This document shows positions 2,531-47,216 of a stretch of DNA of 64,000 nucleotides, piece after piece (positions within the stretch are counted from its first letter, which is position 1; each line of letters begins with the position of its first letter). The notes below the pieces were generated by a model. That model searched no databases. It was not told the origin of the DNA and saw nothing but the letters and a program-made list of their open reading frames with translations. Position numbers and translations under genes: made by a program. Source of the DNA: Terriglobia bacterium (lineage in GTDB: Bacteria > Acidobacteriota > Terriglobia > Terriglobales > Acidobacteriaceae); assembly GCA_020073465.1 (NCBI GenBank), contig JAIQFC010000012.1:1-64000 (forward strand), in the 5' to 3' direction.

Positions 2531-2644
2531 TCTCATGCAGAGTGGCTGAGGGTCACGGGCCCGTCGAAGCCACGACAACCGGATCAGGAGAGATAGCCTG
2601 ATCATCTGGTGCCAATTCCCGCCCGGTTCGCGGGGGACATGAGA
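2531..2644 (+). promoter_or_regulatory. SAM-I (S-box) riboswitch
   Basis: This leader matches the SAM-I aptamer element by element. P1 is TCTCATG (2531-2537) with CATGAGA (2638-2644). The 5' core reads CAGAGTGGCTGAGGG, followed by CGGGCCCGTCGAAGCC and GACAACC. P3 is GGATCAGG...CCTGATC. The invariant GGTGCCAATTCC follows, and P4 is a CCCG/CGGG hairpin. An intrinsic terminator at 2660-2700 and a cysteine desulfurase gene at 2741 come next, so binding of S-adenosylmethionine is expected to stabilise P1 and cause termination. The minus-strand frame across this region is a shadow. Confidence 0.95.
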
Positions 2645-2659
2645 TCTCGGTAGTGATAT

Positions 2660-2700
2660 TGCCTCGTCCCCTCAATCCCGGATGAGGCATTCGTGTTTTT
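2660..2700 (+). terminator. Riboswitch-controlled intrinsic terminator
   Basis: A 10-bp stem (TGCCTCGTCC with GGATGAGGCA, one G-U pair) is followed by TTCGTGTTTTT. It lies 16 bases after the SAM aptamer and ends 40 bases before the desulfurase start, as expected for an S-box expression platform. Confidence 0.85.
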
Positions 2701-2740
2701 GGGCGCGCAGGGCCCAGCGCAGCCCCGATGGAGAATGGGC

Positions 2741-3943
2741 ATGACTGCACGCATTTATTTTGATCATTCCGCAACCACTCCGCTGGACCCTCGGGTTCGC
2801 GCCGCGATGGAGCCTTTCCTCGATGGAGTCTTCGGAAATCCGTCGAGCTCGCATCGCGAAGGCCGGATAGCCCGGGAAGCGGTCGAAACAGCGCGGGCTC
2901 AGGTGGCATCTCTGTTGGGCGCGGATGCCTCGGAAATCGTCTTTACCGCCAGCGGGACCGAAGCTGACAATCTGGCGCTGATCGGCACGATTCGATCGCA
3001 CGATCGACCCGGCCATCTGGTGACGAGTTCGATCGAGCACGCCGCAATTCTCGAGACTTGCCGCTTCCTGGCAAAATCTGGAACGAAGATCACCTACCTT
3101 CCAGTCGATGGCGATGGTCTGGTCAATCTCGACAGCTTGCTGCGGGCGCTGCAATCGGACGTCAGTCTGGTTTCCGTCATGGCGGCAAGCAATGTCGTGG
3201 GGACAGTCCAGCCCATCGAGGAACTGGCTCACCTCACCAAGCTGCACGGTGTCCTGTTTCACACGGACGCGGTACAGGCGGCAGGGAAAATTCCGCTCAA
3301 CGTGAAGCGCATCCCGGTCGACCTGCTTTCTTTGTCGGCTCACAAACTGCATGGCCCCAAGGGAATTGGCGCTCTCTACGTGCGCAAGGGCGTCCACCTG
3401 TCTCCGATTGTCTTCGGAGGCGGGCAGGAACGAGGGTTGCGTTCCGCAACCGAAAATGTAGCTGGAATTGTTGGTTTCGGCGCCGCCGCCGCGATCGCAC
3501 AGGAAGAGCTCGCCGAGGAAGCAGCTCGCCTCGCGGAATTCCGGGAACGCATCGTCGCAGCGCTTCGCCAGACTCTGCCGCACTGTTATCTATTTGGACA
3601 TGCGGCCAAACGCCTGCCGGGTCATCTGAGCATCGGTTTCCACGGTCAGGAAAGGGAAGTGGGAAAGCTCTTGCTTAAGTTGGATGAGGCTGGCGTGGCG
3701 GTCTCCGCCGGAAGTGCCTGCAGCGCTCACCACTCAGGGCAGCCGTCCGAGGTGCTCCTCGCGATGGGTTACGACTCGGAGCGTGCACGAGGTCTGCTGC
3801 GCATCACGTTGGGGCGTTTTAACACTGTGCAGGATGTCGAGCGGTTCCTGGAAATCCTCCCGCAAGCCGTCGCGTCGCTGACGCCCGCACCAAATCACCG
3901 CCAATATGCCGCAGTCGCACTCGATGCTGTGGCGCCAGCTTGA
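2741..3943 (+). CDS. Cysteine desulfurase, NifS/IscS family
   Basis: This 400-residue PLP enzyme converts cysteine to alanine and enzyme-bound persulfide. It begins MTARIYFDHSATTPLDPRV, the family's N-terminal signature. The PLP lysine is in SAHKLHGPKG (Lys202), and the catalytic loop cysteine is in SAGSACSAHH (Cys327), of the short-loop NifS/IscS (group I) type. ATG 2741 has GGAG 7 bases upstream; the in-frame ATG at 2735 is too close to it. The gene is transcribed alone: a SAM riboswitch with terminator precedes it and a palindromic terminator follows. No iscU, iscA or suf gene is adjacent, so this copy may serve sulfur traffic linked to methionine/SAM and not general Fe-S assembly. That role is inference. 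Confidence 0.93.
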   Translation: MTARIYFDHSATTPLDPRVRAAMEPFLDGVFGNPSSSHREGRIAREAVETARAQVASLLGADASEIVFTASGTEADNLALIGTIRSHDRPGHLVTSSIEHAAILETCRFLAKSGTKITYLPVDGDGLVNLDSLLRALQSDVSLVSVMAASNVVGTVQPIEELAHLTKLHGVLFHTDAVQAAGKIPLNVKRIPVDLLSLSAHKLHGPKGIGALYVRKGVHLSPIVFGGGQERGLRSATENVAGIVGFGAAAAIAQEELAEEAARLAEFRERIVAALRQTLPHCYLFGHAAKRLPGHLSIGFHGQEREVGKLLLKLDEAGVAVSAGSACSAHHSGQPSEVLLAMGYDSERARGLLRITLGRFNTVQDVERFLEILPQAVASLTPAPNHRQYAAVALDAVAPA

Positions 3944-5587: not shown

Positions 5588-7180
5588 TTAAGCCGGGTTG
5601 AATTCTCCGTTGACGATCATGGCTTCGCTGATTTCGCGGGCGCGGCGGAAGCGGTCTGCTTCCCCGGATTCGGTGCCGGCAGGCAGTTCCCGCAACAGCC
5701 GGTCCAACTCCTCGTCAAACAGTTCCGTGATGAACTCGGGCGTGTGTTTCACCGCATGACCGTTCTCGTCTGTGATCGAGACCAGCTCACGATGCAAGAC
5801 ACGCTGCGCGATCATGAGGCGGTAGATGCGATCGGTCGCGAGATCTTCCATATAGCCGTCCAGCAAGCTGGCGCCTCGGCCGCTGAGCACACCGTGGCGG
5901 TAGCGGATCACTGTGCGCACCGCAGCGCGCGTACCCTTCACCGTGCGGTCGCCCACGCCCTCCGGCACAGGACGCAGATCGGGATACCGGCTCGCATTCT
6001 TCGGACGCGCGTTGAGCTGGTTGGGGTAAGGAAACTGCGCCACTGCAATCTGATTCTGGTCGGGATGCCCCGTCCAGGCGCCATCCATGAGGCAGTCCGC
6101 CTCGTTCTTCTTGTCTTTCTCCAGAATCGCCAGCGCGCGGACGTTAAGCTCGGCATCCTCGCGGCTGGGATAGAGCGCTGTCATTCCACCGATCGCCAGG
6201 ATTCCCCGGTGATGGCACACTTCCGGTATCAGCTCGCGCAGGTTCTGGAAGAACTTCACATTGTGCGGGATGGTGTTGCGATCGGGCAGCACCCAGTCGG
6301 GATCGTCGAGATTGAAGTGGATCAGGCTGGCCATGTAGTCCCAGCGGCCCAGGTTCAGTCCGATGATGTGATCGCGCAGGTTGTAGGCGAACTCTTCCAT
6401 CTGAAACGCCAGCGGATGCGACTCCACCAGCGCCATGCACTTGATGTAGTTATGCGGCAGTCCCCGCCACTGAGCCAGCGCCTGGAACAGATCCCGCCAC
6501 CACAACGCTTCCTCCGCCGATTCCGACTTCGGAATGTAAATGCACAACGGGTGCTTCAATTCGGCGGGATCGATGCCATAGAAAACCCGACAAACGTCGA
6601 ACAGCGACGCGGACACCAGTTCACCCGGGATCAGCCCTGCCTGGTTGAGGTGCAGCCCCCGCGGCCGGGTAAAGATCACCGTGCCGCTCGGCTGAATCGT
6701 GACCGTGCGATCACGCTTCTTGTCGTAGTAGCTGAGTTGGCCGCGAAGGCAGGCCAGAATGTTGGCCACGCCCATCTCGTGATGCGACCATTCGTTGACG
6801 CAGGAATCTTCCAGATCGAGCATGACTCCGGGCGCGCCCGAGTTGAGCATCTTGACGCAGAGTTCAGCGTCATCCGCTGGGCCCGTCATCTGGTTGCGCT
6901 GATCCTGGCACCACTCCGGCAAAGCAATGCGCCAGCCATTGCGGGCCGCATCGGAAGGGAAGCGGTGCTTGGGCTTGTCGCCTTCGAGCGAAGCCTGCAG
7001 GACTTCGAGCCGCTTCGCGGCGAGTTCCTGCTGCCGCGGCGTGAACATGCGGTGCAGGGGCAGAAAGAAATCCATGAATCCCTGAGGGAGGTCGGTGGAA
7101 GGATCGAATCCTTCCGGTGCGGCATTGATCGGGTTCAGCAACCCGCTGACTTCCGGGAACCCCACTGCGGTTGGCGTCAT
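5588..7180 (-). CDS. aceB: Malate synthase A
   Basis: This enzyme condenses glyoxylate with acetyl-CoA to malate, completing the glyoxylate bypass. The 530-residue length and the motifs [12 protein letters not shown] (metal-binding Asp/Glu), [20 protein letters not shown] and [11 protein letters not shown] are typical of malate synthase A. GGAG lies 8 bases before ATG 7180. It is the promoter-proximal gene of aceB-aceA and is read divergently from the IclR gene at 7349. Two copies of a palindrome lie in the intergenic region, so regulation by that protein is likely. A long plus-strand frame across the gene is an antisense shadow. Confidence 0.97.
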
Positions 7181-8174: not shown

Positions 8175-9002
8175 ATGAATCCAGGTAGGTCCACTGGCGA
8201 GATCATCAGGCATTACTCCGAGGCGGATGAATCCTCGCGCCTTCGCAGCGGGTGGTTTCAGCTGGAAGAAGCGCGCACTCGTGAGCTGATCCTGCGCCAC
8301 CTGCCGCCCCCTCCGGCCACAGTCATTGATGCAGGCGGGGGCGCGGGCCCGTACGCCTGCTGGCTTGCGTCCCGTGGATATCAGGTTCACCTGATCGATC
8401 CGGTACCGAAACACGTGGAGCAGGCGCAAGCCGCATCCGCGCGTCAGCCAGAGCACCCACTGGTCTCGGCAAAAGTAGGGGACGCGCGGCACCTGGCTCA
8501 TGACCCCGAAACTGCACACGCAGTCTTGCTGCTGGGTCCGCTCTATCATCTCGTCGAAAAGGAGGATCGGCTTGCCTGCCTCCGCAAAGCTCACCGCGTG
8601 CTGCGCCCTGGGGGCCGCGTCTGGGGCGCAGGGATCAGCCGCTTTGCGTCGTTGCTCGACTCACTGTCTGGCGGATTTTTCGACGACCCCGAGTTCGCTC
8701 CGATTCTCGCTCGCGACCTGGACGAAGGTCAGCATCGCAATCCAACCGAAAAGCCAATTTACTTCACCGATGCATTTTTTCATCGGCCCGCCGAACTCGC
8801 GCAGGAACTCCTGGAAGCCGGCTTCGACAGGGTTGAAGTGGTTGCCATCGAGGGACCGGGATGGCTGGCGCGCGACTTCGACCGGCTGTGGCGCGATCCC
8901 GTACAACGCGAGCGCCTGCTCGAGGCTGTGCGCAAGGTGGAGCGCGAGCCCTCGGTGCTGGGCGCCAGCTCGCACATCATGGCGATCGGCCGGAAACCGT
9001 GA
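8175..9002 (+). CDS. SAM-dependent class I methyltransferase
   Basis: The 275-residue protein has the SAM-binding glycine motif VIDAGGGAGPYA (about residues 50-61), an acidic end of beta-2 (HLIDPVPKHVE), and post-I motifs VGDARHL and LRKAHRVLRPGG. The C-terminal part (residues 160-260) is a variable substrate domain. The substrate cannot be read from sequence. The ribosome site is weak, but the gene starts 28 bases after the IclR-type gene, so it may be translated from the same message. Confidence 0.88.
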   Translation: MNPGRSTGEIIRHYSEADESSRLRSGWFQLEEARTRELILRHLPPPPATVIDAGGGAGPYACWLASRGYQVHLIDPVPKHVEQAQAASARQPEHPLVSAKVGDARHLAHDPETAHAVLLLGPLYHLVEKEDRLACLRKAHRVLRPGGRVWGAGISRFASLLDSLSGGFFDDPEFAPILARDLDEGQHRNPTEKPIYFTDAFFHRPAELAQELLEAGFDRVEVVAIEGPGWLARDFDRLWRDPVQRERLLEAVRKVEREPSVLGASSHIMAIGRKP

Positions 9003-46250: not shown

Positions 46251-47216
46251 TTACTGGGCGTTCTTGTGCATATCGACGGTGCTCCAGGTTTTGTCGCCGG
46301 CGTGGCAGATGTTTTCGAGGGGACAGTCGACACATTTCGGTTTGCGGGCATCGCAGATTCGGCGTCCGTGCCAGATGATTTGATGGGAGAAGAGAATCCA
46401 CCTCTCGCGGGGGATGGTGCGCATCAGGTCCTGCTCGATTTTCTGCGGGTCGGTTTCTCTCGTGAGTTCAAGGCGGCGGGAGATGCGGGTGACATGGGTG
46501 TCGACCACAACTCCGTCGGCGATTTTGAACCAGGTGCCAAGGACGACGTTGGCGGTTTTGCGGGCAACGCCGGGGAGGGTGAGCAGGTCCTCCATGCTGG
46601 AGGGGACCTGGCCGCCGAAGTCGGCGACAACTTTCTTGGCTGCGCCTACTACGGACTTCGACTTGTTGCGGAAAAAGCCGGTGGAGCGGACGTCAGGCTC
46701 GAGTTGCTCGGGGGTGAGCGCGGCGAAGGCTTCGACGGTCGGATATTTGCGGAACAGTTCAGGAGTGACGCGGTTGACGTTTACGTCCGTTGATTGGGCG
46801 GAGAGGATGGTGGCGACCAAGAGTTCCCAGGCGCTCGTGTGAGTGAGGGCGCAGATGACCTCGGGATAAAGCTGGTCAAGGCGTTTCAGGATTTCGGCGA
46901 TGCGGTCGGGAGCGAGGGGATTGAAGGTGGTCGTTGAGGGAGTCTTTTTTCGCCCCTTCGGGGCTTGTTCAGTGGTCGGTCCTGACCCACGGCTTGCGCC
47001 GTGGGCTGAATTCTTTCGCCGCTCTGCGGCTTTCGCGGGTGAGGGCGCCCGCGCCACACGGGCCGTCCCCACACGAGCATTCTTGCTTACATCCGACTGC
47101 TCCTGGACAGTTTTGGCGGACAAGAGTGTCCGCCCCACATGATCCATCTTGACGCGATCTTGGCGGCCGGTGCGGGCGGGGCGGCGGGGAGTGATTCCTC
47201 GGGGCATGAGGGCCAT
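46251..47216 (-). CDS. nth: Endonuclease III with repeat-derived N-terminal extension
   Basis: This is the DNA glycosylase/AP lyase of base excision repair. The catalytic part (residues about 100-321) has LLVATILSAQSTDVNVNRVT, the helix-hairpin-helix LPGVARKTANVVLG with the catalytic Lys, DTHVTRISRRL with the catalytic Asp, and the Fe-S motif C-x6-C-x2-C-x5-C (CDARKPKCVDCPLENIC). Typical Nth proteins have about 210-220 residues. The first 95 residues here are basic and low-complexity and coincide with three dispersed repeats (47115-47139, 47035-47059 and 46984-47003). The true start is therefore uncertain: ATG 47216, or a later Met/Val. Confidence 0.9.
   Translation of the reverse strand: MALMPRGITPRRPARTGRQDRVKMDHVGRTLLSAKTVQEQSDVSKNARVGTARVARAPSPAKAAERRKNSAHGASRGSGPTTEQAPKGRKKTPSTTTFNPLAPDRIAEILKRLDQLYPEVICALTHTSAWELLVATILSAQSTDVNVNRVTPELFRKYPTVEAFAALTPEQLEPDVRSTGFFRNKSKSVVGAAKKVVADFGGQVPSSMEDLLTLPGVARKTANVVLGTWFKIADGVVVDTHVTRISRRLELTRETDPQKIEQDLMRTIPRERWILFSHQIIWHGRRICDARKPKCVDCPLENICHAGDKTWSTVDMHKNAQ
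47035..47059. repeat. Variable-stem palindrome inside nth frame
   Basis: GCGGGTG-agg-GCGCCCGC followed by GCCACAC. It is almost the same as the 24783-24806 copy. A second hairpin, CCCACGGC-ttgc-GCCGTGGG, lies at 46984-47003. Confidence 0.8.
47115..47139. repeat. Variable-stem palindrome with CCACA tail inside nth frame
   Basis: GGCGGACA-agag-TGTCCGCC followed by CCACA. It is translated on the minus strand as VGRTLLSA in the Nth extension. Confidence 0.85.

Follow-up and report, generated by a model that had tools for sequence, protein, structure and literature searches.

Introduction

The Wolinella route to homocysteine is reportedly thiocarboxylate-based (HcyS/HcyD/HcyF/MetY; Krishnamoorthy and Begley, 2011, cited in PMC5764234) and uses O-acetylhomoserine together with sulfide from sulfite reductase. 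MetO of Streptomyces reportedly acts as a thiocarboxylate with O-phosphohomoserine. According to a 2025 paper (PMC12172450), which cites Hasebe et al. (2024, doi 10.1128/aem.01247-24), homocysteine is made in Streptomyces by MetM, a synthase of a novel kind, and metM of S. albulus has a SAM riboswitch upstream; in Microcystis the paper places a metO-like carrier gene adjacent to thrC. In Vibrionales, csd, which encodes a cysteine desulfurase, is under the control of MetJ (PMC4239095). The literature searched yielded no described case in which a SAM riboswitch controls a cysteine desulfurase.

Here we analyze a 64,000-nucleotide stretch of DNA (the window) from contig C66 of a 5.9-Mb, 99.99% complete genome (G000) that belongs with Candidatus Sulfotelmatobacter (Acidobacteriota); other Terriglobia MAGs are likewise among its closest named relatives. 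What is new is a cysteine desulfurase as the predicted target of a SAM-I riboswitch and, probably, as a component of a pathway whose kind is already known.

Architecture of the leader

When the window was scanned against all Rfam families, the SAM-I model RF00162 matched at 2530-2645 on the + strand over its full length (model positions 1-108) with 66.1 bits (E 3.5e-13), which exceeds the gathering score of 44.4 bits. The features of the locus are as follows.

2466-2494, + strand: sigma-70-like promoter TTGACA-N17-TATCGT, 10 of 12 matches, upstream of the aptamer
2530-2645, + strand: SAM-I (S-box) aptamer, RF00162, with P1 arms 2530-2537 and 2638-2645
2633-2643, + strand: predicted 5' arm of the antiterminator, GGGGACAUGAG, including part of the P1 3' strand
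2661-2688, + strand: intrinsic terminator hairpin of 9 bp, arms 2661-2669 GCCUCGUCC and 2680-2688 GGAUGAGGC, -14.3 kcal/mol
2689-2700, + strand: U-rich tail AUUCGUGUUUUU, directly 3' of the terminator and kept across the genus
2730-2734, + strand: ribosome-binding site GGAGA, with GGAG or GGAGA at the equivalent position in most orthologue leaders
2741-3943, + strand: complete gene for a NifS/IscS-like cysteine desulfurase of 400 amino acids (PF00266, TIGR03402), ATG at 2741 and stop at 3943

The first-pass annotation had claimed an S-box aptamer, a terminator and a NifS/IscS-type gene, and the Rfam match, the hairpin and the PF00266 assignment (E 2e-80, class V aminotransferase fold) bear this out; there is virtually no doubt that this arrangement is real. 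The P1 arms of the window aptamer are fully complementary, and the aptamer is near-invariant among 12 orthologue leaders that we compared, 11 from genomes of the window genus and one from another family. All 12 have the same order of promoter, short hairpin, aptamer, terminator, U-rich tail, ribosome-binding site and ATG, and a TTGAC...TAT motif is recognizable at a similar spot 5' of the aptamer in orthologue leaders. The terminator stem is present in every orthologue leader examined (consensus in the 12: GCCUC(A/G)UCC...GGAUGAGGC plus a U-rich tail) and is also retained in more distant leaders. The U-tract of the window is interrupted; two orthologue leaders (L132, L146) have an unbroken U8 directly or almost directly 3' of the stem. 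The short pre-aptamer hairpin of some relatives (L035, L037, L041) often reads GGCATTCGTGCC and their terminator tail GGCATTCGTG, with ten bases in common; the corresponding window sites are 2505-2525 and 2686-2695.

The nucleotides that contact SAM are presumably AGA in J1/2 and AA/U in the P3 internal loop. Aligned to RF00162, the window aptamer has CAGA in J1/2 and CAACC and GGUG in P3, which is the SAM form. J1/2 and the P3 internal loop are altered in the spermidine-binding SAM-I variant (PMC10853860), and that variant is ruled out here by the SAM-form bases at both places. A chance or misannotated aptamer is likewise ruled out, by the RF00162 score and by the clade-wide linkage to the desulfurase described below. 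Lower P3 has an A-C mismatch in the window, A-U in some orthologues and G-C in one (L141); as aligned, the G-C and A-U pairs represent a compensatory change, and the mismatch might weaken SAM binding by the window aptamer.

Two mutually exclusive structures are predicted downstream of the aptamer. Positions 2633-2643 pair with 2663-2671 in the antiterminator (nine pairs and a 2-nt bulge), and the 3' arm of this structure overlaps the terminator 5' arm, 2661-2669, in the common stretch 2663-2669. In this pairing the terminator 5' arm is taken up by the 3' sides of P4 and P1 (GGGGAC..GAG / CUC.GUCCCC), and such predicted competition is the usual arrangement of an off-switch. The antiterminator is predicted locally in most orthologue leaders, not clearly in that of G106. 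A global fold places the antiterminator state about 8 kcal/mol above the terminator state in free energy, so that switching would rely on co-transcriptional folding.

No promoter-like + strand match other than 2466-2494 was found near the leader. A separate promoter 3' of the terminator was rejected, as there is no candidate and the space from the U-tract to the ATG is only about 40 nt. A GTG start at 2693 was also rejected, since it lies within the terminator tail and leader and is unconserved; the ATG at 2741 is kept in all orthologues. The leader logic is well supported, and from it we infer SAM binding and switching: the locus very probably encodes a SAM-I riboswitch that acts as an off-switch by attenuation.

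The desulfurase and its linkage to the aptamer

The best NCBIfam model for the protein is TIGR03402 (NifS), at 453 bits against a cut-off of 530.75, and TIGR02006 gives 366.5 bits against 643.2. Since both scores are under the NifS and IscS cut-offs, we term the enzyme a relative and not a member of these families. The PLP lysine K202 and the catalytic cysteine C327 are invariant in the orthologues, and H100 is also marked. Among solved structures, those of IscS-type enzymes are the closest; in the alignment to IscS 4r5f (E 7e-97) the equivalents of K202 and C327 are in place.

Within the window the gene is stand-alone, as the first-pass annotation had it, and the next gene, encoding isocitrate lyase, is on the opposite strand. 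This description fails for three relatives (G001, G022 and G034; loci L035, L043 and L045), in which a class I methyltransferase ORF lies closely 3' on the same strand and the SAM switch may therefore cover both genes. A block of isocitrate lyase, malate synthase and IclR-type genes separates the desulfurase of the window from a methyltransferase ORF at 8175-9002. Elsewhere in the window, at 46986-47031, there is an Acido-Lenti-1 RNA (RF01687, 48.7 bits).

A homologue search of 84,980 species genomes gave 80 loci. RF00162 lies upstream of the desulfurase at 16 of 16 loci of the orthologue clade (the window, L127-L138, L141, L143 and L146). The orthologues share 64-82% identity with the window protein, and at every one of these loci about 90-140 nt separate the end of the aptamer from the start codon. 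A further 25 homologue loci were scanned, and none has the aptamer upstream. The 16 riboswitch-bearing desulfurases form one clade in a maximum-likelihood tree (support 100/99), and its sister is a riboswitch-free Acidobacteriota clade. The presence of the aptamer throughout one clade and its absence from the sister indicate that the pairing arose once and was then retained, that is, a pre-existing desulfurase came under predicted SAM control once and remained so.

Riboswitch-free homologues (L139, L142, L144, L148, L150, L156) are found in a recurrent set of genes for an ABC ATPase, a HypB/CobW-like GTPase, the desulfurase and an Fe-S-domain protein, which occurs in peat and sediment MAGs of several phyla and looks like a cofactor maturation operon. 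The operon of one actinomycetote (L150) is followed by a cysK-like gene, a SAM riboswitch (5980-6105) and a Cys/Met-metabolism PLP enzyme.

SAM riboswitch targets in relatives

We surveyed the window genome and 120 relatives (121 genomes), assigning targets by contig and position and counting them manually. RF00162 matched 86 times. Twelve of these riboswitches precede the window-type desulfurase and about 70 a MetM-type enzyme: 68 lie before a threonine-synthase-like gene and two more before a contig-end fragment of one. One (in G099) precedes a cystathionine gamma-synthase-like gene, and the targets of three are unassigned. A gene for a MoaD/ThiS-type sulfur carrier usually comes after the threonine-synthase-like gene; the carriers mostly end in ...SIAGG plus one to four residues, and such tails past GG fit a need for a processing protease. 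Several relatives encode ThrB (homoserine kinase) near the MetM-type gene.

The second SAM riboswitch of the window genome (locus L033) stands before such a pair, in the layout of MetM/MetO: riboswitch, threonine-synthase-like enzyme, then carrier.

2629-4104 of L033, 5' of the carrier gene: threonine-synthase-like enzyme (TIGR00260, PALP)
4107-4388 of L033, 3' of the threonine-synthase-like gene: MoaD/ThiS-type carrier, C-terminus GG-AR

The TIGR00260 score of this enzyme, 267 bits against a cut-off of 167, would also suit an ordinary threonine synthase, with SAM balancing threonine against methionine and the desulfurase linkage a separate matter. An operon in G111 (L223) points the same way, as a single SAM riboswitch there precedes a threonine-synthase-like gene, MetY, MetX and ThrB, so that classical and MetM-type genes stand together, and a carrier gene was not detected in it. 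We consider this reading very improbable, however, because the window genome has a separate threonine synthase far over the PRK08197 cut-off (552 bits against 303) and because a sulfur carrier usually lies 3' of the SAM-controlled enzyme. We infer the MetM/MetO assignment, and the transfer of sulfur to the carrier, from the genomics.

A member of another family (G115, family f9; locus L240) has a riboswitch operon that encodes a MetM-type enzyme, a ThiF/MoeB E1, an EF2568-type cysteine desulfurase (431 bits, cut-off 377), the aspartate-semialdehyde dehydrogenase Asd and a carrier-like frame. The operon of G101 is like it over the stretch covered, and that of G108 is without the desulfurase. 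The L240 enzyme appears to be a second, independent recruitment of a desulfurase into a SAM-riboswitch operon. Such a recruitment into an operon of the same content is the strongest sign that the window desulfurase belongs to the pathway; and, as the same riboswitch class controls the MetM-type genes, the desulfurase is probably the sulfur supplier of that pathway.

Homocysteine and sulfur genes of the window genome

MetA was not found in the 99.99% complete window genome, and neither was a convincing MetX, for which the best match scores 147 bits against 334-489 in MetX-positive genomes. Across the survey, a MetM-type enzyme is encoded in three of 18 genomes with MetX versus 82 of the 103 others (Fisher p 5e-7, kinship uncorrected), which suggests that the two are largely mutually exclusive; strict exclusion is refuted by the three genomes with both. 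A MetA-family protein is present in 20 genomes, and it occurs together with the desulfurase in G001, G016 and G042, which counts against the carrier-route reading.

Three PF01053 transsulfuration-type enzymes are encoded in the window genome, one of them a cystathionine beta-lyase above cut-off and another a relative of sulfhydrylases and gamma-lyases, and a classical homocysteine route is therefore conceivable. They also lend themselves to the view that the desulfurase frees sulfide for direct sulfhydrylation or transsulfuration by a Cys/Met-metabolism PLP enzyme, with no carrier involved. We regard this as quite unlikely, since neither MetX nor MetA is available to make acyl-homoserine and since the SAM-controlled partner is a threonine-synthase-like enzyme with a carrier and not a PF01053 enzyme.

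Parts that could serve a carrier are encoded elsewhere in the genome: a MoeZ-like E1 with a rhodanese domain beside a second carrier, and JAB proteases, one of which adjoins a PALP-family gene. A run of genes at 4688-9765 of L218 (contig C12 of the window genome) encodes a ThiF-like E1, ubiquitin-like proteins and a JAB-domain protein and resembles a bacterial ubiquitin-like conjugation cluster.

There are also two housekeeping IscS-like desulfurases, and as read from sequence one gene adjoins an IscU-like scaffold and an Rrf2-like regulator, the other an MnmA/TrmU-like gene. These bear on the possibility that the window desulfurase serves other sinks (Fe-S clusters, thiolated tRNA, cofactors), with SAM serving only to report the overall supply of sulfur amino acids. 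The general NifS/IscS-like type of the enzyme speaks for such a role, as do the ABC ATPase, HypB/CobW-like GTPase and Fe-S-domain protein encoded next to its closest riboswitch-free homologues; yet these sinks already appear to have desulfurases in the genome, and the unrelated second desulfurase sits in a SAM-riboswitch operon of MetM type in another family, so we judge this role unlikely. Most relatives with a MetM-type regulon are without the window-type desulfurase, and housekeeping IscS-like enzymes evidently can suffice there.

Proposed mechanism

We favor the reading in which the desulfurase is dedicated to carrier-dependent homocysteine synthesis. When SAM is low, the terminator 5' arm would be captured by the 3' sides of P4 and P1, allowing read-through and production of the desulfurase; when SAM is bound, P1 would keep its 3' strand, the terminator would form and the desulfurase would be off. 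The enzyme would take sulfur off cysteine as a protein persulfide, and the sulfur would most likely pass via a ThiF/MoeB/MoeZ-type E1 to a thiocarboxylate on the MetO-like carrier of the second SAM-riboswitch operon, from which the MetM-type enzyme would put it onto O-phosphohomoserine to give homocysteine. As a whole, a SAM-repressed, dedicated desulfurase that supplies this synthesis is moderately probable, and the role of the desulfurase as the sulfur donor is, on balance, the reading that we lean towards. A dedicated sulfur route of this kind, with a persulfide donor for homocysteine or a sulfur carrier, had been suggested in the first-pass annotation, and it gains support from the second riboswitch before a threonine-synthase-like enzyme and carrier, from the retention of the regulon in relatives, and from the family whose riboswitch operon also encodes an E1 and an unrelated desulfurase.

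A wider proposal, to which we give evenly balanced confidence, is that in Acidobacteriota the entire carrier-dependent homocysteine pathway, sulfur source included, is a SAM-riboswitch regulon; a desulfurase would have been recruited at least twice from different families to load the MetO-type carrier, and methionine sulfur would come from cysteine without acyl-homoserine. The analysis puts forward a candidate for the sulfur donor of a methionine pathway that was described only recently, and riboswitch targets alone indicate the probable genes of this pathway in a large soil phylum with few cultures. A way of homocysteine synthesis is also suggested for bacteria without MetX or MetA, a gap often read as auxotrophy in genome-based metabolic reconstruction.

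Comparison with known systems

Like other RF00162 riboswitches, that of the window has a full-length covariance match, an intact P1 and a transcription terminator as its expression platform; it differs in having a cysteine desulfurase as target and one A-C mismatch in lower P3. Control of a cysteine desulfurase by a methionine/SAM regulator is shared with MetJ-csd of Vibrionales, where the regulator is a protein repressor instead of an RNA and the phylum is another. Residues past GG on the carrier, E1-type activation and an available JAB-type protease recall the Wolinella route, whereas the route proposed here would use a threonine-synthase-like enzyme and probably sulfur from cysteine. MetM/MetO of Streptomyces, as described in the 2025 paper, likewise has a threonine-synthase-like enzyme, an adjacent carrier and an upstream SAM riboswitch; relative to that account, the predicted SAM regulon of Acidobacteriota is larger by a desulfurase and, in a single family, by an E1 and Asd as well.
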